Source: Bacteroidota bacterium (GTDB lineage Bacteria > Bacteroidota > Ignavibacteria > UBA10030 > UBA8401). From it: a stretch of 64,000 nucleotides of DNA. The stretch is taken from NCBI GenBank assembly GCA_021796215.1, contig JAJYOK010000019.1, forward strand, positions 1 to 64,000, read 5' to 3'. Numbering within the stretch: position 1 is the first letter of the stretch; the number at the start of each line of letters is the position of its first letter. The position numbers and the translations under genes were made by a program. Of this stretch, positions 6,807 to 64,000 are shown one piece after another. Below the pieces are notes generated by a model. It was not told the DNA's origin. It made no database searches and worked only from the letters and a program-made list of their open reading frames with translations.

Positions 6807-8297
6807 TTACTGTCTGCTGTGGCAGTCACTGCAATTCATCTCTTTCCATGCAGTGCCAATATCAACCGGATGGCGGTACTCTACACCGTTTAATGACAAA
6901 CGTAACTTATCATTAAGATCTTGGGCAAGAATAACATGACACGTGTTGCAATCTCTTGACAGAACTTTCCCGTCGTCGCTTACGTGTTTTCCATCGTGAC
7001 ACCGGAAACATCCCGGATCGTACAAATGGCCGATGTTATTCGGATACTTCTTCCACGAAACGCGCATTTCGGGAAAGAAATTTCGGCTGTAAATATTTTG
7101 AAGCTGAACAATTGCGGAATCAATTTCAGCTTTTTTTGTTTGCGCAATGCGCGGATACCGTTCTGCATATTGCTCACGCACATAAATTCCGATGCTGTCT
7201 TTTGCTCCATTTCCTGTAGCATAATGCTGCGACAAAGCTTCGACAGAAATCGCTTTGGCATAAGGAAGCTGCGGATCAATCCAGCCTAATTTCATCGCTT
7301 CGTTCACCGATTGATTAGGCGGCCTGTAAATATGCGTCGGTCGATTATGACAATCAATGCAATCCATTAATCGTCGTTCCCCCTTTGCAAGTTGAGCGTC
7401 GGTGAACGAGCCATCATTAACTTTGTATGTCACCGTTTTCCCGTCGGGACCAACCGATTGCACCCACGGAATTACCTGCCGCTGAGAATCAATGGCAACG
7501 TACGTGATTTTGTTTCTGATATTCATGTGCCAATGAATTCCTGAAGTGGGGCCGCTTTCTGAATTACCACCGCCGATTTTCATCAGCAGCGTAATCCACC
7601 ACTCAGTATTTTTTTCATCAGGGAGAAAATATGTTTTTTCGATTTTCTTCTCCGTGTAAAAATATTTTGGCCAATGGCACTGCTCGCACGTTTGCTGAGC
7701 CGGACGAAGATTGCGGACAGGCGTTTCGATCGGGCGCGTATATTTATTGAAGAGAACCGAATAAACCTGATACGCACCGGATAATTTTGATTTGACATAC
7801 CAGTCCGCTCCCGAACCGACATGACACTCCGCACATGTCACGCGTGCATGGGGAGAATATTTGTAGGCAGTATATTCCGGCTTCATCACTTTGTGACATA
7901 CTTCGCCGCAAAACTGAACGGTTTCAGTATACTCGTATGCCTGATACGCCCCAAAGGCAGAAAATATCAGAAGGAAAACAGTGACTACAGCAAAAAACAT
8001 AAACACCGAACGATGATGTGCGTCGTTAAAATCAATCCGCAAATACCGGTGAGAGGCTTCTTTTTCTCGGCGCCTGCGGCGATGTTCGAGAATCATGCCG
8101 AGAAGAATAATTCCAACACCGGCGAATAAAGCAAGCGGCAGAATGAGAAATGCAATGACGCCCATGTACGGGTTGCGCACTTTCTCAAACACTTCCAGCA
8201 CAACGAGAAACACAATGACCGAGAAACTCACAATCGAAATTGTGGTGCCGGCAAAACTTATCGGGTTATAAAATGATTTTGGGAGAAATCTTTTCAT
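6807..8297 (-). CDS. NapC/NirT-like multiheme membrane cytochrome c (7 putative hemes)
   Basis: The protein (496 residues) begins with three hydrophobic segments, followed by a NapC/NirT-type block: FCGEVCHKVMKPEYTAY, then RVTCAECH and TCEQCHWP. The first heme site is CX3CH rather than CXXCH, a variant I recall in some related cytochromes. A C-terminal extension adds CIDCH, CFRCH, CNTCH and CSDCH, giving six CXXCH sites plus the CX3CH. Such proteins oxidise membrane quinol and pass electrons to periplasmic hemes. I chose ATG 8297 because the upstream in-frame extension (translating as NAETQSRRKKR) reads like a dispersed intergenic repeat, and AAAGAG lies before this ATG. It sits between a cytochrome b gene and the Rieske gene. 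Confidence 0.88.
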   Translation of the reverse strand: MKRFLPKSFYNPISFAGTTISIVSFSVIVFLVVLEVFEKVRNPYMGVIAFLILPLALFAGVGIILLGMILEHRRRRREKEASHRYLRIDFNDAHHRSVFMFFAVVTVFLLIFSAFGAYQAYEYTETVQFCGEVCHKVMKPEYTAYKYSPHARVTCAECHVGSGADWYVKSKLSGAYQVYSVLFNKYTRPIETPVRNLRPAQQTCEQCHWPKYFYTEKKIEKTYFLPDEKNTEWWITLLMKIGGGNSESGPTSGIHWHMNIRNKITYVAIDSQRQVIPWVQSVGPDGKTVTYKVNDGSFTDAQLAKGERRLMDCIDCHNRPTHIYRPPNQSVNEAMKLGWIDPQLPYAKAISVEALSQHYATGNGAKDSIGIYVREQYAERYPRIAQTKKAEIDSAIVQLQNIYSRNFFPEMRVSWKKYPNNIGHLYDPGCFRCHDGKHVSDDGKVLSRDCNTCHVILAQDLNDKLRLSLNGVEYRHPVDIGTAWKEMNCSDCHSRQ

Positions 8298-8349
8298 GTG
8301 AAACACTCTTTTCTTTCTGCGACTCTGCGTCTCAGCGTTGAATGTATTC

Positions 8350-9249
8350 TCATCGGTATGCAAAAATCATCGCATAAATAATCCAGACAACAATACAGAA
8401 ACCGGTCGTAAGTGCCGCCCAGCCGAAAACTTTTATTGCCCGTACCACGATCGGCGGGTACGGTTCAACGAGAAACTCTTCCAGCTTGTGTTGTTCCAGA
8501 AGTTCTTTGTACTCGGCAGGCCTGTCTATTTTATATTCTTCAAGCGAGGTTCTGCCGGAGAAAATGACAATATCCATCGGAAATTTTTCCGGGCGAAGAT
8601 GCGTATTGAAAAAGTGGATCGTAAAGATAAAACCGGTGGCAAGCAGCGCTTCGTCACTGTGAATAATAGTAGCCACGTTAATCACCCAGCCCGGGAAAAT
8701 ATGGGTTAACAACTCCGGGAACCAGAGTGTAACGCCGGTCGAACCGATCACAAAAATTCCCCAGAACACCGCAAAGTAATCGAACTTCTCCCAATACGTC
8801 CAGCGCCCGTACTGGGGACGCTCACCTTTTCCGATAAACCACTTCAGGGTCTCGATAAAATCTTTAAGGTCTTTTTTATTGAACATCATACTGCCCGGTG
8901 AAAAGATCAACGCTCTCCATGTTTTGTATTCTCTCTTTTTCATTTTCGTAATGTCTACGATATGAGTGATGAAGACGCTCATCATCACCACCGCAAAAAA
9001 GCGGTGAATGTATCCGGCAGATTCAAAACCTCCTAAGAGGTGCGAAAGAATTGACGCCCAGCCGGTGTACGAAAACTTTATCGTCAGCCCCGTCAGCGCA
9101 AGACTGATAAAACTGACGATCATAAGAATGTGAAGCACTCTGTTCAACCGGGTGAATCTTTGGAATTGCAGTTTCTGCCTGTTCATGCTCATCAGAGAAA
9201 CCGGTACAGAGGCAGGCTCATTATTTATTTGCTTTTCACTCTCGGTCAT
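8350..9249 (-). CDS. Cytochrome b subunit (formate dehydrogenase/hydrogenase gamma-like)
   Basis: About 299 residues with five hydrophobic helices carrying histidines typical of the di-heme b cytochromes of formate dehydrogenase/Ni-Fe hydrogenase type: RVLHILM, YIHRFFAV, ITHIVDI, IIHSDEALL and TIHFFNTHLRPEKFP. It resembles the C-terminal membrane domain of the fusion protein at 11221-13356. The start at 9249 (MTESEKQ) overlaps the end of the 19-heme gene by 14 bases; longer reading upstream is unlikely to be coding. It presumably exchanges electrons between the quinone pool and the 19-heme cytochrome encoded just upstream, as a split version of a CbcL-type enzyme. The direction of electron flow cannot be read from sequence. 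Confidence 0.87.
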   Translation of the reverse strand: MTESEKQINNEPASVPVSLMSMNRQKLQFQRFTRLNRVLHILMIVSFISLALTGLTIKFSYTGWASILSHLLGGFESAGYIHRFFAVVMMSVFITHIVDITKMKKREYKTWRALIFSPGSMMFNKKDLKDFIETLKWFIGKGERPQYGRWTYWEKFDYFAVFWGIFVIGSTGVTLWFPELLTHIFPGWVINVATIIHSDEALLATGFIFTIHFFNTHLRPEKFPMDIVIFSGRTSLEEYKIDRPAEYKELLEQHKLEEFLVEPYPPIVVRAIKVFGWAALTTGFCIVVWIIYAMIFAYR

Positions 9250-11224
9250 TGGCTTCTTTGTTTTCTGATTTTTTGTTCTCGCTTTCACCGGATAACTTTT
9301 TCTGTAATTCTTTTCTGTACTGAAGCGACCGCGGCAGCCACAACAATGTGTGCACTCCTGCAAGGACAAATGTTCCTATCAACAATGCGGTCATTCCTAA
9401 AAATGACCAGTACAGCCACGGATATTTATTCGGATCGTGATGCGTTGCATGAGTAAAATATCCGGCGAACTGTCTGCTGGCGCCAGCGTGGCATTTCTGA
9501 CATGTCTTGACAATATTCTGATGGCTGAGGTGTGAATTAGGATCCGTTACCGGCAGAATATCATGCGCGCCATGGCAATCGTAGCACTTTGCAGTTTTTG
9601 TGTAACCAAGCTGCGAAACTTTTCCGTGATAGGTATCGAAATATGTTTTCGCAATTTCTGCGTGGCACCTCCCGCATTGACTCATGATCGTCAATTTGAA
9701 CTGGTCCTGATCTGTTCTGCTGATTGAATGCGCAGTATGACAATCATTGCATGCAGGAAGCTGCTTATCGGTTTTCGTTACCAGCGGCGAATGGACACTC
9801 TTATCAAATTGTTCCTGAATTCCAAAATGACATTGCCCGCATGTTCCGCTTACATTTTTTCTATTGACGCTCGATGCCGGATCAGAATGCGGAAGCTCGT
9901 GATGGGCTGTATGACAATCTGCGCAGGTTGCGGTAACCGTCATGCCGCTTTTCATCAATCCTTTGCCGTGGATGCTCTCGGTATATTTTTCAATAATATT
10001 ATGTTCTGTTCCTGTATATCTGACGGCTGCTTGCTTGCCTTCATGATGACACTTTCCGCACAAATACGGAACGTTGATTGCGAAGGTCGCGGATTTAGGA
10101 TCTTTGTTGCCGAGCACATGATGCGTACCATGGCATTCAGTGCATGTCGGCGCATTTGAATCGTTCTTTGCAGAAAGCTGACCATGAATGCTTGTCTTGT
10201 ACTCGTCGCCAACTTCCGCATGACAAATAGTGCAATCAACTTTTGAAGTAATCCCTTCACATGGCCTCAAATAAGAAGGGTTCACTTGTGTATGGCATTG
10301 ACTGCAGGCAACTTTAGAATGTTTTGATCCGCCAAGTTCGCCGTAATTCACAAACATTGATTTGCCGTTTGCCGCCTTCAGTTCTTTTTTTCCGTGGCAG
10401 CGCAAACAATCCTGATCAGCCATTCCCTGTTCATAATATACGTTTCTGATTTTATGCGGCTGATGGCAGTCAACACAGACCGGCAGCATATGCGGCGCTT
10501 TTTCCCACAGCGCACCGCGGATAATTTTTCTGTGAACAGTTTCGATTGCTGCGTGACATTTCGTGCACGTTCCCGCGATATTGTTTCGCGCAATCGTGGA
10601 GTGAGAATCAGTGTGCGGCAGAATTTTGTGTGCTGAATGGCAAGAAACGCAGGTTGGCGCGACAACAAGCCCTTTCTTCAGGAGCGCTTCGCCGTGGATG
10701 CTTTCCGTGTAATTTTCTAAGATGTTCGCTTGTGGAATATGCCGCTGCACCTGAACCGGAGTACCTTCATGATGACAGCTTCCACAAACATAGGGAATCT
10801 GCAGAGTTGTTACAGCGGACTTTGGATCTTTAACGGGAAGAATTGCATGAGAACCGTGGCAGGTTTGACACACCGGCGCTAATTTATCGCCTCGCGCAAC
10901 AGCTTTTCCATGCAAGCTTTCGGCGTAATCTTTATACTCTGCCTGATGACAGTTCGTACATTTCGCTTTGTCAACATTTTCTTTGTGAGGAAAATCGGAA
11001 CCTTTAAGGTCAACATGACAATCAATACACTTATTTTCTGCATGAACTGAAGAAGCTAATTTTTCCTGATCAACAAAAACTGAAACGGCTTTGCCATTTA
11101 TGGTTTTCGTTAACGTTTTATCTTCATGGCAGGCAAGACAGTCGCTGTTATCCTGCGCTGAAACCGAGGCAGAAAAAGCGAAAAGCAAACAGCCGAAAAG
11201 AAATATATGCTCGTGCTTACTCAT
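9236..11224 (-). CDS. 19-heme cytochrome c with C-terminal membrane anchor
   Basis: This 662-residue protein has a signal peptide (residues 1-23), 19 CXXCH motifs by my count, and a C-terminal transmembrane helix (LGMTALLIGTFVLAGVHTLL) followed by a charged, Lys/Glu-rich cytoplasmic tail. The heme domain contains repeated modules that alternate APTCxxCHxxH with VPYxCGxCHHEG and ESIHGxxLxK segments, indicating internal duplication. It starts with a four-base ATGA overlap with the CbcL-like gene and overlaps the following cytochrome b gene by 14 bases, so the three are translationally coupled. It is probably the periplasmic heme wire of a quinone-linked complex. Substrate specificity is unknown; no catalytic site distinguishable from heme ligation is visible. 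Confidence 0.92.
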   Translation of the reverse strand: MSKHEHIFLFGCLLFAFSASVSAQDNSDCLACHEDKTLTKTINGKAVSVFVDQEKLASSVHAENKCIDCHVDLKGSDFPHKENVDKAKCTNCHQAEYKDYAESLHGKAVARGDKLAPVCQTCHGSHAILPVKDPKSAVTTLQIPYVCGSCHHEGTPVQVQRHIPQANILENYTESIHGEALLKKGLVVAPTCVSCHSAHKILPHTDSHSTIARNNIAGTCTKCHAAIETVHRKIIRGALWEKAPHMLPVCVDCHQPHKIRNVYYEQGMADQDCLRCHGKKELKAANGKSMFVNYGELGGSKHSKVACSQCHTQVNPSYLRPCEGITSKVDCTICHAEVGDEYKTSIHGQLSAKNDSNAPTCTECHGTHHVLGNKDPKSATFAINVPYLCGKCHHEGKQAAVRYTGTEHNIIEKYTESIHGKGLMKSGMTVTATCADCHTAHHELPHSDPASSVNRKNVSGTCGQCHFGIQEQFDKSVHSPLVTKTDKQLPACNDCHTAHSISRTDQDQFKLTIMSQCGRCHAEIAKTYFDTYHGKVSQLGYTKTAKCYDCHGAHDILPVTDPNSHLSHQNIVKTCQKCHAGASRQFAGYFTHATHHDPNKYPWLYWSFLGMTALLIGTFVLAGVHTLLWLPRSLQYRKELQKKLSGESENKKSENKEANDRE

Positions 11225-13356
11225 TTCACCGCAGGGTTTTTCGCTTCTTCAAGCTGCTGCTGTTTTATCTTCTCAAGCTCTATAGGATGTTCTTCGAGCA
11301 TTTCTTCTTCGCTAATCGTCCCTTTGAACCAAGCAAGATTCATCGGATAGATATCGGGATTGAAAATAACGAAGTAAAAATGCCAGACAATAATCGCCAG
11401 CGTCGCAAGCCATGCTTCGTAGTAGTGAACTGTTCGGGCAACATCGAACCACAATTTGCCGATAAGCCCGAGCGATGTATTGTCGAACCACATGATCGAA
11501 CCGGTAAGTCCCATGATAACTGTCCCCCACACCAATGCCCAGTACTCACTTTTCTCAATGTAGCTGAAACGGTCGAACCGCGGTTTTACCCTGCTGATAC
11601 CGAGATTGTATTTTGCAACGGCAAGTGCATCGTGGATATCCTGAACTCGCGGAAGAAGATCATAGATCAATTTCCTTCCACGCTGCGTGAAGGAGATATA
11701 ATAGAGATGATACAAACCCGCGCTCACAAGAATCACCGCTGCAATGCGATGAAGCAAACTTCGAATTTCAAACACCGCAGGGCTGATGGAACGAATTGGC
11801 TCAACCCACCATGCGTCTGGAAATTTTAACATAAAGCCGGTGATAACAAGCGTAATGAAACTGACAAGCAGCGAAACATGCTGCAGCCGTTCGCTCAGCG
11901 TCATTCGCACATACAGACTGTGTCCGGCTTCTTCTTCCTGAAAATGTCCGCGCCGCACACGTAGTTTGTGTTTCGCTTTCTTCAGAAAATCAAAAAGATT
12001 ATGAAAGAACATTCCGCCGATGGTAACAATAATGAGAACGATATACGTGCTTGTAACATAGTACAGCAGCGGATTTTGTTTTTCCGTCACAACAACGTGT
12101 ACCGGCCCCTCGGCAAATTTCGCATTCGCCCCCGGATGACATTTGCCGCACGTCTTTGCAAGATTTTGTTTGTTGACGCTCGATCTCGGATCGCTCGTCG
12201 GATAAACATTGTGAGCCGTATGGCAGCTTGCGCAATTTGCAACAGTCGTTGCGCCTCCTTCCAACGCCAAACCGTGATAACTATCCTTGAACGTGCTCAA
12301 TCTATTCGGGTTAAGGCCGTACTTTGCAGATAAGGCAACCGATGTGTGACATTTCGAACAGACTTCCTGAGAAACATGTGCGTGGGAAGTCGGTGCTTTC
12401 GGGTTAGAGGGATTCAGAATATTGTGTTCACCGTGGCAATCAGTGCATACCGGCGCATCTTTGTTGCCGGCAAGAAACGCCGTTCCGTGAATGCTCGCTT
12501 TATACTCAGTGGCAATTTCCGGATGACATTTCGCGCATGTGTTCGGAATATTGAGTCTGTTCACAAAAGATTTCGGATCGGAGCCTTTGCGCATGTCATG
12601 ATTTCCGTGACAATCAACGCAGTTTGCTGCTTTCCCGTTGCCGTTCTTTAATGCCTGGCCATGAACGCTTGCTTCGTAGGACATCACAAAGTTTTTTGTC
12701 GGTCCGGTTTCAGATAAAATTTTATTTGTGCCATGACACGAAACGCATACTTGTTCCTGCGCAATTTTCAATTGAACGGAATCTGTGCCGGCTGTAACTG
12801 TGGTGATGTTTTGTGAATGACATGAAATGCACGTCGGTGCATTTTTGTTATGAGCGGTGTACGCTTCCCCGTGCGCCGACTCGAGATAATGTTTTTTTTC
12901 TTGCGTGTGGCATGTACCGCAGCTTTCCACGACATGGGAAGGACTGAATTTCGTTCCGGCAATCTTCGGCGATTGTACATCGTGTGTGCCGTGACATTCC
13001 TTGCACATTTTGCTGACATCGCTGCCCCCTTTTGCGAAAATTGTTTTATGGAAAGAATGTTTCGTCGGGGCATTTTGATGGCATGTGAGACATTGGACAG
13101 GCGTAATATGCTCTTTGTGCGGCATGTCATCCGGATTAAATCCGGTATGGCATGCTACGCAGACTAATTTTTTGTGCGTTGAATGCGAAAGAACATTGTC
13201 ATCAACATAAATGGAAACTGCTTTCCCTTTGCGTTCCATTGTTAGCGTCGAATCGGAATGGCACATTAGGCAATCGGCTTTTGATTGCGGATACAATGGA
13301 AGAGAAAAAAAAGAGGAAATAAAAAGAATTGAAAGTGACTTGAATAATAACTTCAT
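11221..13356 (-). CDS. CbcL-like fusion: 13-heme cytochrome c plus di-heme cytochrome b
   Basis: The 711-residue protein starts with a signal peptide, followed by a periplasmic region with 13 CXXCH motifs (about residues 25-405). It then has a membrane domain with about five helices, including ERLQHVSLL, LLHRIAAV, GLYHLYY, TVHYYEAW and IVWHFYFV histidines. This layout matches CbcL-type inner-membrane quinol oxidoreductases of metal-reducing bacteria, which join a multiheme domain to a HydC/FdnI-like b subunit; the heme number here is larger than the nine I recall for Geobacter CbcL. It is the first gene of the operon; 290 noncoding bases with candidate control sites precede it. Orthology to CbcL is inferred from architecture only. 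Confidence 0.88.
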   Translation of the reverse strand: MKLLFKSLSILFISSFFSLPLYPQSKADCLMCHSDSTLTMERKGKAVSIYVDDNVLSHSTHKKLVCVACHTGFNPDDMPHKEHITPVQCLTCHQNAPTKHSFHKTIFAKGGSDVSKMCKECHGTHDVQSPKIAGTKFSPSHVVESCGTCHTQEKKHYLESAHGEAYTAHNKNAPTCISCHSQNITTVTAGTDSVQLKIAQEQVCVSCHGTNKILSETGPTKNFVMSYEASVHGQALKNGNGKAANCVDCHGNHDMRKGSDPKSFVNRLNIPNTCAKCHPEIATEYKASIHGTAFLAGNKDAPVCTDCHGEHNILNPSNPKAPTSHAHVSQEVCSKCHTSVALSAKYGLNPNRLSTFKDSYHGLALEGGATTVANCASCHTAHNVYPTSDPRSSVNKQNLAKTCGKCHPGANAKFAEGPVHVVVTEKQNPLLYYVTSTYIVLIIVTIGGMFFHNLFDFLKKAKHKLRVRRGHFQEEEAGHSLYVRMTLSERLQHVSLLVSFITLVITGFMLKFPDAWWVEPIRSISPAVFEIRSLLHRIAAVILVSAGLYHLYYISFTQRGRKLIYDLLPRVQDIHDALAVAKYNLGISRVKPRFDRFSYIEKSEYWALVWGTVIMGLTGSIMWFDNTSLGLIGKLWFDVARTVHYYEAWLATLAIIVWHFYFVIFNPDIYPMNLAWFKGTISEEEMLEEHPIELEKIKQQQLEEAKNPAVK

Positions 13357-25869: not shown

Positions 25870-27180
25870 TCAGTTACTGTTTGAATGTGCAAAACCGTAC
25901 CACTGACTGTCGGTTGCAGTTTCTCTAAAAAGTTCTACCTTTGCCCATTTGTTGCTGATCTTCATCATCACTTCAAAATGAAGAGCGCTGCCGACATTGA
26001 CCGTCTGCGAGGTAGAATAGCTTACACTTCCGTTCCCAACATTCACTGTGCCGCCGGTTTCATTCACTGAATGCCACCAACCAACAAATGAACCGGTGAG
26101 AGTTTGACTTGTCGGTATTTGTATCCGGAATGTGCCTGCATCTCCCGTTCTTGCAAGAACTATGTTATCACTAGCTATGCCTGATTCAGCGACAAGAGAA
26201 AAGACAATGGTTCCATCTGTTTGGTCGGTTGAAGTAACTTCGATATAAGCCGGTGCACCTTTGTCTCCTTTCAGACCTTGTGAACCTGGAGTACCCGGAT
26301 CGCCTTTATCTCCTTTAGGTCCCTGAATTCCCTGCGCACCTGGAGTTCCCGGGTCGCCTTTATCTCCTTTAGGTCCCTGGATTCCTTGCAAACCTTGTGC
26401 ACCTGAAGCGCCCGGATCGCCTTTATCTCCTTTAGGTCCCTGAATTCCCTGCGCACCTGGAGTTCCCGGGTCACCTTTATCTCCTTTGAGTCCCTGAATT
26501 CCTTGCAAACCTTGTGCACCTGGAGCGCCCGGATCACCCTTGTCGCCTTTCAATCCCTGAATTCCCTGTGCACCTGGAGTTCCCGGGTCGCCTTTATCTC
26601 CTTTGAGTCCCTGAATTCCTTGTAAACCTTGTGCACCTGGAGCACCTGGATCACCCTTGTCACCTTTAGGTCCCTGAATTCCCTGCGCACCTGGAGTTCC
26701 CGGGTCGCCTTTATCTCCTTTGAGTCCCTGAATTCCTTGCAAACCTTGTGCACCTGAAGCGCCCGGATCGCCTTTATCTCCTTTGTCGCCTTTAGGTCCC
26801 GGATTTTTGGCAGAATCAGCCATCGAAGCATGTACTGATTCTAAGCTGTACGCCACCGGAGTCAATGCCATTCGCGGGGATAATTCTATTCCTTCAAATG
26901 TAATACCGAGAGAATCAATACCGTGAAATTGAACAGAATCCGGAAACGGACCCAGCATCGTATGCAGAAGTCCTTTCTCAATATGAAGGGAAACCGGCGC
27001 GCTTATCCATGCGGCTTGATTTCCACGATAAAGTGTAAAAACAAACGCTCCGTCGCCGCTGAACGGCGCTCCGTCTTTCTCAAGATACCCTTCGTACGAA
27101 ATGACACGAGGTACTTGCGAAATTAATTGATGAGGCAAAACGCCAACAAATAGCGCAAAGAAAAGTAGATATTTCTTCAT
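25870..27180 (-). CDS. Collagen-like secreted protein
   Basis: The 436-residue protein has a signal peptide (residues 1-21), an N-terminal beta domain (about 22-127) that starts [20 protein letters not shown] and ends [20 protein letters not shown], and an uninterrupted run of 61 Gly-X-Y triplets (about 128-310). A C-terminal beta domain of about 125 residues follows. The triplets use [15 protein letters not shown] and GTP and form a 13-triplet higher-order unit repeated about four times. Bacterial collagens trimerise into stiff rods; the end domains probably nucleate trimerisation. It likely makes a surface fibre or adhesive stalk. It starts a unit with the T9SS-domain gene downstream. Confidence 0.9.
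26251..26799. repeat. Collagen-coding tandem repeat, 9-bp codon triplets in a 117-bp unit
   Basis: The Gly-X-Y region is a nested repeat: nine-base units, alternately grouped as seven and six triplets, giving a 117-base period seen about four times. Copies are nearly identical at the DNA level, so length change by slippage or recombination is likely. Confidence 0.85.
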
Positions 27181-59968: not shown

Positions 59969-60079
59969 ATTGTCTTTTGAGTTTTTAGAGACGCCCTAAA
60001 GTAAATACTCATCGCGTCCTTGCGGTGAAAATCTTTTGGCGGGGGGCACTGCACCTCGTTCCCAACGTCCACACTCTAA

Positions 60080-60336
60080 CCCCACGATTCATCGTGGGGA
60101 ATAAGCGCAAGCTCACCATCCTGTAACTCTCTGATTTATTGCGGAGATACCGCACGCAAATACTTCTTCGGGCTTCAGCCCATAGCAGTCATGGCTAAAG
60201 ACCACTTTCTCTGTCTGGCACTTGCCCCATGCTGAAGCATGGGGTTCGAGAATTAGCGCTGATAATATCCATTATTTCAACCCCACGATTCATCGTGGGG
60301 AAGCAACACACTCACACACCGCCCGGGCTTCAGCCC
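60080..60336. repeat. Cluster of REP-like palindromes
   Basis: Within 257 bases there are two exact copies of CCCCACGATTCATCGTGGGG (60080 and 60281), one CCCCATGCTGAAGCATGGGG (60225) and two GGGCTTCAGCCC (60170 and 60325). Order and spacer words repeat (CTCACACAC, TCATGGCTAAAGACCAC-like). No transposase is adjacent. Confidence 0.85.
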
Positions 60337-60346
60337 TGACTTTACC

Positions 60347-60559
60347 TCATTCTTCCTCAACAAACGGATAAAACTCCCTCTCACTGCACAGATTCATTTT
60401 TGCAGCAAGCCAATCTTCAATTGCATCCCTCACCTCCCCAATCATTTCGATATTCCATTCAATCTCTTGCCGTGTGGGATTAAGGCGTTGGAGTGTTTCA
60501 AAGATTATGTTGTCAACATAATCTTGTCTCGAAATTTGCTGGTCAGTAAGTTCGGGCAT
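60347..60559 (-). CDS. Small hypothetical protein
   Basis: The 70-residue acidic protein (MPELTDQQISRQDYVDNIIF and on to FYPFVEEE) is predicted helical, with no signal peptide, cysteine pair or known motif. It starts with an ATG; no strong Shine-Dalgarno. It lies between a palindrome cluster and the restriction-like island. Codon and residue composition look coding, but homologues cannot be checked. Confidence 0.5.
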   Translation of the reverse strand: MPELTDQQISRQDYVDNIIFETLQRLNPTRQEIEWNIEMIGEVRDAIEDWLAAKMNLCSEREFYPFVEEE

Positions 60560-60766
60560 GGCATTAGAATTGTAATTTGCTTTGTTTCAAACGTCCTGCT
60601 GGCGATGCAAACCGCGCTCCGCAGGAACGGCATATTTGAAAAGGAAAACAACTATGCTCGTCATGCTGAGCGCAGCGAAGCATCCAGTTCTGTGTTTTTC
60701 GCATAGCCGCACTGAGCAAAGACGAAGTGCGTACTGTTAATTAAAATTGCGGTGCGCCTTCGCCTC

Positions 60767-61054
60767 TTACCTTAAAATGCTGTAACGAATTCGGGAGAGG
60801 TCTTCATCTGCTTTCGGTTTACGAAATACAAATAAATGCTCATGCATGATAAGATAAAACTGAAAACTTTTAGCTCTGTCTTTCCATCGCTGTCCATACT
60901 TCGTGTTGTGCTGAGTTTTGATAATCTCTTCTTTCAAAGCAAAACCATTCCGAAGGCAGCGATCCAGAACAAAATGAGAGAGTGGCACATAGTGCTGTCC
61001 TTTTCGAGTATCGCCAATGAGCACGGCACAATATCGGTTGGGTTTTTTCGCCAT
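60767..61054 (-). pseudogene. C-terminal fragment of an N4/N6 DNA methyltransferase
   Basis: The 95 residues match the end of site-specific DNA methylases: RYCAVLIGDTRKGQHYVPLS, GFALKEEIIKTQHN and FYLIMHEHLFVFRKPKADED. The AdoMet pocket and the DPPY-type catalytic motif are missing. In its own frame a stop lies upstream (about 61090). A run of six A residues near 61050 would, with one base shift, join it to a frame starting MMRELNVPKGDLAGTRWRK, but even that adds only about 20 residues. Therefore it is a remnant or a naturally truncated partner. It lies downstream of the adenine methyltransferase and nuclease-like genes on the same strand. Confidence 0.65.
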
Positions 61055-61123
61055 CTCGTTCCCGCCAAGTCCCCTTTCGGAACATTAAGTTCCCTCATCA
61101 TAGCACCTGCCCCCCCTGCAAAG

Positions 61124-61717
61124 TTAAAACAATTCGTCAAAGTTACTTCCTTCACCGCTTCTAATCACATGCATCTTGTGTGTAATCTTGTCAAAGCGAA
61201 CAGATTTAATTACCGGCACTGATAATTTATATGGACTATCAAGCTCTGGATAATAAATCACAACACAGGACGGAAACGGCGCGGATTGTTTTCCGTCGCC
61301 AAAACTAATTCTGCCAGAAATAAACCGGATTTCCGACGCCCTCATAACCCAATCGTGCCACCATTTAGTGTCTGTGCGACTTGGAATAAGACACACCACT
61401 AAAGCACCTCGCTGACTTTCTTCAAAAGCTTTTTTCATCCACTTAGAAATATTTTTCCCATACGGAGGATTCATCCAGCAGCGAAACGGGCTCCACTCTC
61501 GTTTCAATCCGTCAACTGACTTGTCAAAATACACTTTACATTTTGTATTTTCAGAGGTAGCACATACATCAACTTGAAACTGAAATTCATTGGTAAGTGC
61601 TGAGAATACGTACTTGGGCGTTTCCCACTCTTCGGTTCGACTTGTAAATAGACCGGTCGTTAATCTTGATTTGCTATCTTCTACAGTTGTAACTCTAAAT
61701 AAATTTTTCGATTTCAT
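61124..61717 (-). CDS. Phage-type DNA N6-adenine methyltransferase
   Basis: The 197-residue protein has the features of phage-type Dam-family (DNA_N-6-adenine) methylases: EWETPKYVFSALTNEFQFQV, CATSENTKCKVYF, catalytic CWMNPPYGKNISKWM (NPPY) and ALVVCLIPSRTDTKWWHDWV followed by IRFISGRISFGDG and APFPSCVVIYY. It methylates adenine in a short DNA site. It begins seven bases after the nuclease-like gene, suggesting a coupled modification partner. The local DNA is more AT-rich than most of the window. Confidence 0.9.
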   Translation of the reverse strand: MKSKNLFRVTTVEDSKSRLTTGLFTSRTEEWETPKYVFSALTNEFQFQVDVCATSENTKCKVYFDKSVDGLKREWSPFRCWMNPPYGKNISKWMKKAFEESQRGALVVCLIPSRTDTKWWHDWVMRASEIRFISGRISFGDGKQSAPFPSCVVIYYPELDSPYKLSVPVIKSVRFDKITHKMHVIRSGEGSNFDELF

Positions 61718-61724
61718 TCTGAAA

Positions 61725-62450
61725 TTACAAGTCGGCTTCGATTAAGCTTAATTCAACTGTTTTCACATGAAGGTCAGCTACGACATCATACGGAAGGAAT
61801 TTTACTCGATGCTCAATATTTTTGAATGCTGTAAATGCTAAAGCTGAATGGAACTGTTTTTCTCGCACTTTGTCTGCCACAATTCGAAAGTCAACACTAA
61901 AATCTTGAAGCTCGAGAAACTTCAAAAGAGAGTTTTTGAAATCCGTCGAATGCTCAACTTCAAAAAAAGCTTGTGGAAACTTGCGTTCGTTAAACCACGA
62001 GACATCAATTGTAGATGCTTTATCTATTATATGATCGTAAGTAAAATTATAGAATTGATCAACTGTTGCTACTTCTTTCAACGGCTTTTCAAGATATTTT
62101 TTATTCTTATCCTGATAAGGAACAAATGTTTCAAACTTCTTTAATTTCCCTATTTCAAGCAATAGCCCTTGATAATACGAATGATTAAAGTCAGTGGCGG
62201 ATGGAGTTCTTCTTTTTCCTATCTCAAACAGGTGCAATACTTTTTCCTTTTCTGTTTTAAGTGCCCAAAGCCCGGGTTTGATTTTGAAAAAGAACCGCTC
62301 GTCTTGAACGATACGCCTAATTGAGGCAAGTGGAGTTTTTGTTCCCCATTTAACCTTCTCGATCTTAAAAACTTCTTGGTACAAATTTCCGAGTGTTGCA
62401 TATCCCCCTTTGGATTTCATAACCTCAATAACCGCTTCGTACTGCTTCAT
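61725..62450 (-). CDS. Putative restriction-endonuclease-like protein with N-terminal winged helix
   Basis: The 241-residue protein starts with a winged-helix-like domain (residues 1-75: MKQYEAVIEVMKSKGGYATL, PLASIRRIVQDERFFFKIKP). The C-terminal part has IDVSWFNERKFPQAFFEVEHSTDF, an ID...E-x-E pattern like a PD-(D/E)XK nuclease core, followed by basic helices. Together with the adjacent methyltransferase this suggests a restriction-modification pair, but no family was identified for certain. I chose ATG 62450 because GGAG lies eight bases upstream; a GTG at 62504 would add 18 residues. The gene is visibly AT-rich, a sign of acquisition. Confidence 0.6.
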   Translation of the reverse strand: MKQYEAVIEVMKSKGGYATLGNLYQEVFKIEKVKWGTKTPLASIRRIVQDERFFFKIKPGLWALKTEKEKVLHLFEIGKRRTPSATDFNHSYYQGLLLEIGKLKKFETFVPYQDKNKKYLEKPLKEVATVDQFYNFTYDHIIDKASTIDVSWFNERKFPQAFFEVEHSTDFKNSLLKFLELQDFSVDFRIVADKVREKQFHSALAFTAFKNIEHRVKFLPYDVVADLHVKTVELSLIEADL

Positions 62451-62538
62451 AAGGTTTGCTCCAACAATTAACGGTTTGAATGGTAATACTTTCACATCAA
62501 CCACAAAGATTCAATAAATGAGGTAGTTAATTAAACTC

Positions 62539-62587
62539 CACCTAAAGTAACCAAACCCTCTGCGAAGGTCAAGAAAAAGCTTCTGTC
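62539..62587. repeat. Direct repeat A, copy 1
   Basis: CACCTAAAGTAACCAAACCC followed by TC(T/C)GCGAAG and AAGAAAAA; copy 2 at 63005-63053 differs at only a few bases. The two copies are 466 bases apart. Confidence 0.75.
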
Positions 62588-62658
62588 CCCCTCTCGCTCA
62601 ACCATTCTGTCTCTTTCTGCGTGCAATACAGTTCACCTTTGGTTTTTCATCCACAGTG

Positions 62659-62790
62659 TTAAAAGCCATCGGTAAATTTTGTTATGTTATTTTTCCGCAT
62701 CTTCCGTTTTGCAAATGCCAGTACAATCAATCCGAGAAATACCATTGCTAACATTGCCGGCAGCGCATAATTTCTAATGAGTTCTTCCAT
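62659..62790 (-). CDS. Possible 43-residue single-helix membrane protein
   Basis: The frame encodes MEELIRNYALPAMLAMVFLG followed by LIVLAFAKRKMRKNNITKFT and three more residues. There is one transmembrane helix and a basic C-terminal tail, a layout of genuine small membrane proteins. GATGAAG lies upstream. It is too short to confirm by composition. Confidence 0.4.
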   Translation of the reverse strand: MEELIRNYALPAMLAMVFLGLIVLAFAKRKMRKNNITKFTDGF

Positions 62791-63004
62791 ATTCAATACT
62801 TCATCTATTCAAACTTTTGCCGCTGCTTTGCCCGCTTCATTGCCCTCTCAAATTTCTGCTGGTCAATCTGCACGTGCAGGACGCCCGGTTTATTCGGAAG
62901 CAAAAATTTTCTTGCTGGCTTCGCTTTGTGCCTATAGCTTTGAGTTAAAGATTTCAGCTCAGCAATGGAATGATAATTAAATCCTGATTGACGGCAAACA
63001 GGTG

Positions 63005-63053
63005 CACCTAAAGTAACCAAACCCTCCGCGAAGTTCAAGAAAAAATTTGTCCT
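63005..63053. repeat. Direct repeat A, copy 2
   Basis: Near-identical to 62539-62587. It directly follows, on the minus strand, the end of the heptad array (encoding FFLELRGGFGYFR). Confidence 0.75.
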
Positions 63054-63246
63054 GCATTGCGCAGAACTGCTTCTGCACATCATTGGTCCAGCCCTGCATA
63101 TCATTTTTCTGGCTCTGCATATCGTTGGAACAGCCCTGCATGTTGTAGAACTGGCTCTGCATATCATTTTCCCTGCTCAGCATACCGTTAGAACAGCCCT
63201 GCATGTCGCAGAACTGGCTCTGCATATCATTTTCCCTGCTCTGCAT
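63037..63246 (-). repeat. 21-bp tandem repeat encoding heptads (MQSxxND)
   Basis: Ten 21-base units on the minus strand encode MQSREND, MQSQFCD, MQGCSNG, MLSREND, MQSQFYN, MQGCSND, MQSQKND, MQGWTND, VQKQFCA and MQDKFFL. A further partial unit (RQSSND) precedes the first ATG but is preceded by a stop codon. Third-position changes and conservative replacements suggest some coding constraint; the whole frame is 89 residues (62977-63246). Confidence 0.7.
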
Positions 63247-63363
63247 ATCGTTAGAACTCTGCCGAAATTAGAAAATACACTGTTTTCACCGGAAAACCCC
63301 ACATCAGGGCGGTGCGGGCCACGGTACGCCGCCCCTTATGTGGTTTCTCTTTACAGCCCGCCT

Positions 63364-64000
63364 TTATGGTGCAGGCGGTGTATCAGGCGGAGGTGGCGGT
63401 GTGTCACCATTGCCTCCGCCGGAAGGCGGCAGTGTGAAGCGAAGCTCATACGCATGCTGAAACTCTTTCAAAACAAGAGGTTCGCGGATGAACTCCGACT
63501 TCGCCGCCGCTTCTATCTCGTCCGCAATGTCGGTAACGGCTTTCAGCTTTGCCGCCGCCGCTGCGGTTGCCTGCGGGGATTCCTGTTTTCTGCCCACTTC
63601 CTGCGCCGTGTCGTCAGCCTCCAGTGCCTCGCGGTTGGCGGCAAGCTCGGTAAGGTCGGCGGCAACAAGCTTTCCTTTAGTGGTAAGAAGTGTTTCATGA
63701 GTGGTCCATGCTGACTCGATATCCTTCGCCCACTCAATCAGCTGAGATGTCGAGCGATTATAATTATCGCCGATGTGAAATAGTTCAAGAAGGTCGCTCT
63801 TCTTTCCGAACGCCGTCCTCGCTCCTCCCTGAATCTTCTGAATGGAGATGTGAAGCTCGTTCTTCGAAGAGCCTTCCTTTTTCGTTTTGTCTTTGCTCAC
63901 CGCTCTCTTTTCCGTAACAGCCGCATGCGAACCCTGCATGGCGGCGGAAGCGGAATCGTAGCTCGTAAGCAGCTCCGGTGTAATGCCTCGCGATGCAAGC
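63364..64000 (-). CDS. Hypothetical helical protein with Pro-rich tail (5' end outside window)
   Basis: The frame is open from the right edge (LASRGITPELLTSYDSASAA precedes the first internal Met) to a stop at 63364, so the start is outside. The visible 212 residues are Ala/Glu/Lys-rich and predicted mainly helical, with a region of about 100 residues (FGKKSDLLELFHIGDNYNRS to FIREPLVLKEF) and a C-terminal tail SGGGNGDTPPPPPDTPPAP. No signal, metal or nucleotide motif. Function unknown; the Pro tail may be flexible or bind proteins. Confidence 0.7.
   Translation of the reverse strand, partial: LASRGITPELLTSYDSASAAMQGSHAAVTEKRAVSKDKTKKEGSSKNELHISIQKIQGGARTAFGKKSDLLELFHIGDNYNRSTSQLIEWAKDIESAWTTHETLLTTKGKLVAADLTELAANREALEADDTAQEVGRKQESPQATAAAAAKLKAVTDIADEIEAAAKSEFIREPLVLKEFQHAYELRFTLPPSGGGNGDTPPPPPDTPPAP

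Follow-up and report, generated by a model that had tools for sequence, protein, structure and literature searches.

A 21-bp tandem array lies on the minus strand near the end of a 64,000-nucleotide stretch of DNA (hereafter the window) from a Bacteroidota bacterium (assembly GCA_021796215.1, contig JAJYOK010000019.1, positions 1 to 64,000). The array is one of a noncoding class in which units differ freely in sequence but keep a spacing of two turns of B-DNA, and the class shows genetic linkage to genes that encode small helical proteins. As far as could be found, the class is both widespread and undescribed. The array and its far edge are as follows:

63037–63258, minus strand: 21-bp tandem array (Tandem Repeats Finder, TRF; repeat search, autocorrelation, unit listing and codon test)
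63259–63300, minus strand: A/T-tract-rich leader at the far edge of the array (sequence GGTTTTCCGGTGAAAACAGTGTATTTTCTAATTTCGGCAG); DNA similarity to a sister species reaches 63267 and ends at the array

An earlier sequence-only reading of this DNA had reported a 21-bp array here, and the array is real, with nine full units (63058–63246) and two partial ones, namely a partial unit at 63247–63258 and a tenth unit at 63037–63057 that merges into an adjoining end sequence. The TRF call spans 63063–63258 with periods of 21, 42 and 63 bp, and a weak 63-bp super-period is present. Four in-register CTGCAT anchors were never obtained in dinucleotide-preserving shuffles. No inverted repeats were found in 62000–64000, no Rfam match in 60000–64000 at E ≤ 1, and no match to the DNA of the array elsewhere in the order.

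When read on the minus strand, the full units are of an ATGCAG type, and units 1–5 translate as MQSREND, MQSQFCD, MQGCSNG, MLSREND and MQSQFYN, followed by MQGCSND, MQSQKND, MQGWTND and VQKQFCA for units 6–9. The heptad M-Q-S-x-x-N-D proposed earlier thus survives as MQ[SG]xxND, a fair summary of the nine. The array is nonetheless noncoding and encodes no protein: mismatches among the nine full units are spread evenly over the three codon positions (102/92/85), and codon differences comprise 139 nonsynonymous against 14 synonymous changes, the opposite of what a peptide under selection would show. These counts show no sign of peptide constraint, and they bear out the earlier suspicion that the frame, which has no ribosome-binding site, is not a gene. 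The helical surface that had been imagined for the heptads was rejected. An exact 21-bp period turned out to be a genome-wide trait of noncoding arrays.

This trait emerged from a genome sample of 855 kb, made up of the window and 40 further stretches. A high-stringency scan of periods from 10 to 40 bp returned period 21 only, in five arrays, together with a single coding 36-bp repeat, and the same dominance of 21 bp held at lower stringency. The units themselves are mostly unrelated, as is evident from C1 (GGATAATCCAATTTCCCGGAC), C11 (GGGAAGCGTTCTAACTCATCG), C10 (AACCCTGTACCCGTTTAGATA) and the window (CCGGCTCTGCATATCGTTGGA), and significant similarity between units occurs mainly within one genome (C11b with C10, C1 with C36, and one pair in G028). 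Spacing was then measured between successive exact 7-mers in 31 arrays that had been chosen for periodicity, the contrast between 1-bp and 3-bp errors not being a selection criterion. Distances of 21 (1451), 42 (739) and 63 (296) were the rule. Misfits fell mainly at 20, 22, 41 and 62, with 76 counts altogether, and a single one was off by 3 bp. In these k-mer counts one slip is counted several times; by array, slips of ±1 bp occur in about ten and a 3-bp slip in one. Two turns of B-DNA amount to 21 bp, and a 1-bp slip loses little phase; a reading frame, by comparison, tolerates errors of 3 bp and not of 1. The predominance of 1-bp over 3-bp errors therefore points to DNA phase and not to codons, and the exact 21-bp period is most simply explained by DNA helical phase. 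A weak peak near 10.25 bp in the phased A-tract signal of the flanks, obtained without a matched control, was not used.

Locus L272 (G000:C11:60001-78019) places a Cas9-like open reading frame (ORF; MSTTLGLDVGTNSIGWAL...) beside a 21-bp array, and a long array of 77-bp period at 7490–12378 of the same locus may be the clustered regularly interspaced short palindromic repeats (CRISPR) of that ORF.

The second part of the finding, linkage to a protein family, concerns the gene that precedes the array in the window:

63364–64000, minus strand: gene for a 237-aa helical protein, a distant relative of NCBIfam PQLLE_fam (NF052641); the gene starts at contig position 64077, past the window

Loci of this family were gathered by protein profile only, from the order and the phylum, and their flanks were scanned. 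Arrays with a period of 21, 41 or 42 bp were found within 1.5 kb of 27 of the 31 loci, usually 5′ of the gene, and at three of the four loci without an array the flanks are cut by the contig end. At a lag of 21, 18 of the 5′ flanks scored at the threshold or above; apart from 41 and 42, other lags passed in at most two. Arrays were far rarer in the controls, which gave 0 of 21 lnt loci, 11 of 238 3-kb chunks of the same genome (5%) and 1 of 207 chunks from four PQLLE-negative relatives. Fisher tests of the PQLLE loci against controls gave 3e-24 and 7e-11, values that assume independent loci even though some share a genome. In Aureivirga marina, which was found by the DNA pattern alone, an array of 13.9 units precedes a frameshifted PQLLE gene by about 80 bp.

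The protein in the window appears from its sequence to be a distant relative of PQLLE_fam. Against NF052641 it scores 25 bits (E 1e-5) and its C1 paralogue scores 47.6 bits (2e-12), both under the curated cut-off of 80 bits; the homology runs along the length of the model (25–204 aligned to 27–207 of 211), and intermediate members bridge the gap. Five members of the protein's family occur in this genome. The two halves of the protein, each of about 100 aa, are homologous to one another (hhalign E 2e-15). No member of the family was found on plasmids, phages or viral contigs, and the open-access literature held neither work on PQLLE_fam nor records of arrays beside the family.

Heptad similarity or the DNA pattern also led to arrays upstream of two further helical families. 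A translated heptad search of relatives gave weak matches only, which nevertheless led to 21-bp arrays at L013 and L022. One of the two families is common to L022 (Bacteroidota) and L141 (Verrucomicrobiota); the other is common to L104 and L013, and one of its members is fused to a carboxypeptidase-regulatory-like domain. No convincing profile match was found between PQLLE and these two families, and such comparison does not establish homology of either to PQLLE.

Individual loci of this kind are worth recording. At L022:1855-2496 and L141:5430-6155, the gene directly downstream of the 21-bp arrays encodes an unannotated helical protein whose tail may be a beta-sandwich, and at L104:657-1580 and L013:2148-2828 an unannotated helical family follows noncoding 21-bp arrays. 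At L169:3515-4689, from a Bacteroidales metagenome-assembled genome, a 21-bp array that reads as KQAFCII heptads is immediately followed by an unannotated 244-aa ORF of broadly similar look.

Comparison with a sister species (G002) reveals how quickly these arrays turn over. There the protein encoded upstream of the array is 83% identical, and DNA similarity extends to the edge of the array and then stops. The orthologous site itself holds a 21-bp array of an unrelated unit, with some 20-bp units, so the period has been kept while the sequence was replaced. At a second locus, C5 of G002, the orthologue of C14, there are 17 units against about 3, and the array is again flanked by the leader and the promoter-like tail that C14 has.

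The end sequence of the window array occurs in two copies:

63005–63044, minus strand: end sequence copy 2, promoter-like TTGAAC-N17-TACTTTAGG, directly adjoining the final array unit (sequence, repeat search)
62539–62578, minus strand: end sequence copy 1, promoter-like TTGACC-N17-TACTTTAGG, with no array beside it (sequence, repeat search)

The sequence-only reading had noted that the end recurs 466 bases away, and there are exactly two occurrences at that distance (expected 0.00); the duplication, given as 49 bp, is instead 40 bp long with 38 of 40 positions identical. On the minus strand it reads TTTTTCTTGAMCTTCGCRGAGGGTTTGGTTACTTTAGGTG, that is, TTGAMC, 17 bp and TACTTTAG. A restriction endonuclease gene begins, with GTG, 35 bp downstream of copy 1, and copy 2 faces a short region with small ORFs. 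The promoter-like end had gone unnoticed before, as had the PQLLE-like gene before the array and the restriction-modification operon after the end.

The proposal of a repeat element with a fixed 3′ end was partly right, for a subset of arrays. A genome search for the end gave no more exact copies and none at up to two mismatches, but it did give two diverged copies (76–78% identity), the only others in this genome, each adjoining a 21-bp array: one on C14, about 45 bp from an array of 2–3 units, and one on C36, where an insertion resembling a miniature inverted-repeat transposable element (MITE) separates the end from a 12-unit array. By locus handle, sequences of this type stand beside 21-bp arrays in L005, L006/L258 and G002:C5. 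Most arrays are without the end, and it was absent from 396 genomes of the phylum, GTDB contigs and viral contigs, with one chance-like match in the order. Given its promoter anatomy and its absence from most other arrays, the end is better read as a probable promoter beside some arrays than as the terminus of a mobile element. The MITE-like insertion on C36 (L006, about 1571–1717) has the ends GGTAGTGTCTCATTTTG and CAAAATGAGACACTACC and lies between array and promoter-like tail.

The remaining features of the neighbourhood are as follows:

62659–62790, minus strand: putative small ORF of 43 aa, lying between the two promoters, with a predicted membrane segment (MEELIRNYALPAMLAMVFLGLIVLAFAKRKMRKNNITKFTDGF)
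61725–62504, minus strand: restriction endonuclease with a HARE-HTH domain, downstream of end copy 1 (Pfam PF05066, 8e-6; PADLOC REase_II, 2.4e-8)
61124–61717, minus strand: Dam-type N6-adenine methyltransferase of the same operon (Pfam PF05869, 1.9e-30; PADLOC oMTase, 8e-43)

Within 60767–61717, the Dam-type methyltransferase ORF is followed by a 95-aa ORF that matches type II methyltransferase models at their C-terminal end (PADLOC 1e-16), and the region may hold a split or second methyltransferase. Elsewhere in the window, a long repeat of 117/63/54 bp at 26266–26784 apparently encodes collagen-like Gly-X-Y and is ordinary.

As to what the arrays do, the reading we tentatively prefer, while giving it somewhat less than an even chance, is that the array is a phased DNA platform that is bound by the helical protein and acts on the adjacent promoter. 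The protein, either the array's own copy or a paralogue acting in trans, would bind cooperatively, one per two-turn unit and along one face of the DNA, and the resulting filament or bend would control the abutting promoter, here 63005–63044. The near-identical promoter at 62539–62578, which would drive the restriction-modification operon, could possibly be controlled as well. The number of units would grow or shrink in whole two-turn steps with phase kept, and arrays elsewhere in the genome would be bound in trans. For action in trans there is one direct hint: the unit of the array beside the C1 PQLLE paralogue recurs in an orphan array on C36, as a regulator of that kind would lead one to expect. 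The reading further draws on the 21-bp period of the genome sample, the replaced array in the sister species, the linkage to PQLLE loci, the 1-bp slips, the internal duplication of the protein and the promoter-like end ahead of the restriction-modification gene.

Several observations weigh against a platform of this kind. Neither a recognised DNA-binding domain nor a Rep domain was found in the window protein, and single-sequence AlphaFold models are all helical and poor (pLDDT 43–46). The array lies 3′ of the PQLLE-like gene in the window and its sister, whereas it lies 5′ in most relatives. This genome has many orphan arrays, with no helical gene next to them. An array near lnt is missing in the sister species, so no single array would seem essential to its neighbour. 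Finally, a crude motif scan for a general rule that arrays stand upstream of promoters was not significant, with 16 outward and 13 inward sites.

The best surviving alternative, unlikely yet to be taken seriously, is a passive minisatellite, in which replication slippage, or some other process that builds arrays in inherent steps of 21 bp, would generate functionless arrays that are tolerated or promoted at helical-protein loci. Fast turnover would suit it well, with the new sequence at the orthologous site, the change in unit number at C14/C5 and the loss of the lnt array, as would the abundance of orphans. Slippage alone, however, gives no reason for exactly 21 bp in unrelated sequences, nor for placement by one protein family at so many of its loci and by three helical families. 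A purely mutational origin of the arrays is possible.

A second alternative, which we consider improbable, is that the array is transcribed into a 21-nt-periodic RNA serving as a scaffold for the helical protein or as a regulatory RNA. Several loci have arrays between promoters and co-directional genes, and free sequence with a fixed period would suit a scaffold; on the other hand, a scaffold of A-form RNA, at 11 bp per turn, should prefer 22 to 21, the array matches nothing in Rfam, and the promoter-like end in the window points away from the array.

More improbable still is a MITE-like mobile element, with the BrickBuilt layout of a leader, an array inside and a fixed tail that bears a promoter. 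The tail does recur beside arrays at three loci of this genome (C20, C14 and C36) and one of the sister (G002:C5), and at the C14/C5 locus leader and tail bound an array of varying length. Against this, there are no inverted repeats and no target duplication was seen, the leaders differ between loci, most arrays are without the tail and one copy of the tail is without an array.

The heptad-repeat (coiled-coil) peptide gene starting at ATG 63246 has next to no chance of being right: its frame is open for 89 aa and every unit is 21 bp, but a TAA stop lies just upstream of the first unit, the third-position-biased, mostly synonymous variation expected of such a gene is not what the units show, the ribosome site is lacking, the frame is not conserved in the orthologous array with its 20-bp units, and the class slips by ±1 and not ±3 bp.

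Base-pair-exact spacing across unrelated sequences and bacterial families is the mark either of a DNA architecture under selection or of a process dedicated to making arrays. Through the linkage, a set of unannotated families of helical proteins gains a first role that can be tested. Annotators should be cautioned that heptad "proteins" predicted inside such arrays are not genes. It is conceivable, if rather doubtful, that the phased platform represents a new chromosomal system, in which information would lie in helical phase and not in sequence and would be read by an internally duplicated superfamily of helical proteins encoded alongside, in Bacteroidota and, through a second family, Verrucomicrobiota.

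Known systems share parts of this arrangement. Bacterial noncoding tandem repeats are usually taken as neutral typing markers, and like an ordinary minisatellite or variable-number tandem repeat the present arrays are tandem and noncoding, with copy numbers that vary between species; unlike these, their 21-bp period is locked across unrelated sequences and they are linked to helical-protein genes. Plasmid iterons are direct repeats of about 20–22 bp in helical phase, set beside the gene of an initiator protein, and the pairs diverge together. The arrays resemble iterons as phased direct repeats beside the gene of a putative binding protein, but no replication origin or Rep domain was recognised, many arrays occur on the chromosome of each genome, and searches of plasmids and phages gave no member of the protein family. 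In a search of the open-access literature, nothing relevant to 21-bp-locked arrays appeared except BrickBuilt of Porphyromonas gingivalis, whose 19 related copies share a single conserved unit of 23 nt and carry IS5-type terminal inverted repeats (PMC4596501). BrickBuilt is likewise an intergenic tandem array of about two turns in Bacteroidota, with leader and tail (PMC4596501). Its ends have promoter activity and its unit number varies between strains; the ends here are promoter-like, as judged from their sequence. Of the traits of a BrickBuilt-type MITE, the recurring tail is present here, and terminal inverted repeats and one conserved, dispersed 23-nt unit are not. What sets the present arrays apart from BrickBuilt, besides the inverted repeats that were not found, is a period of 21, units that are mostly unrelated and linkage to a protein family.
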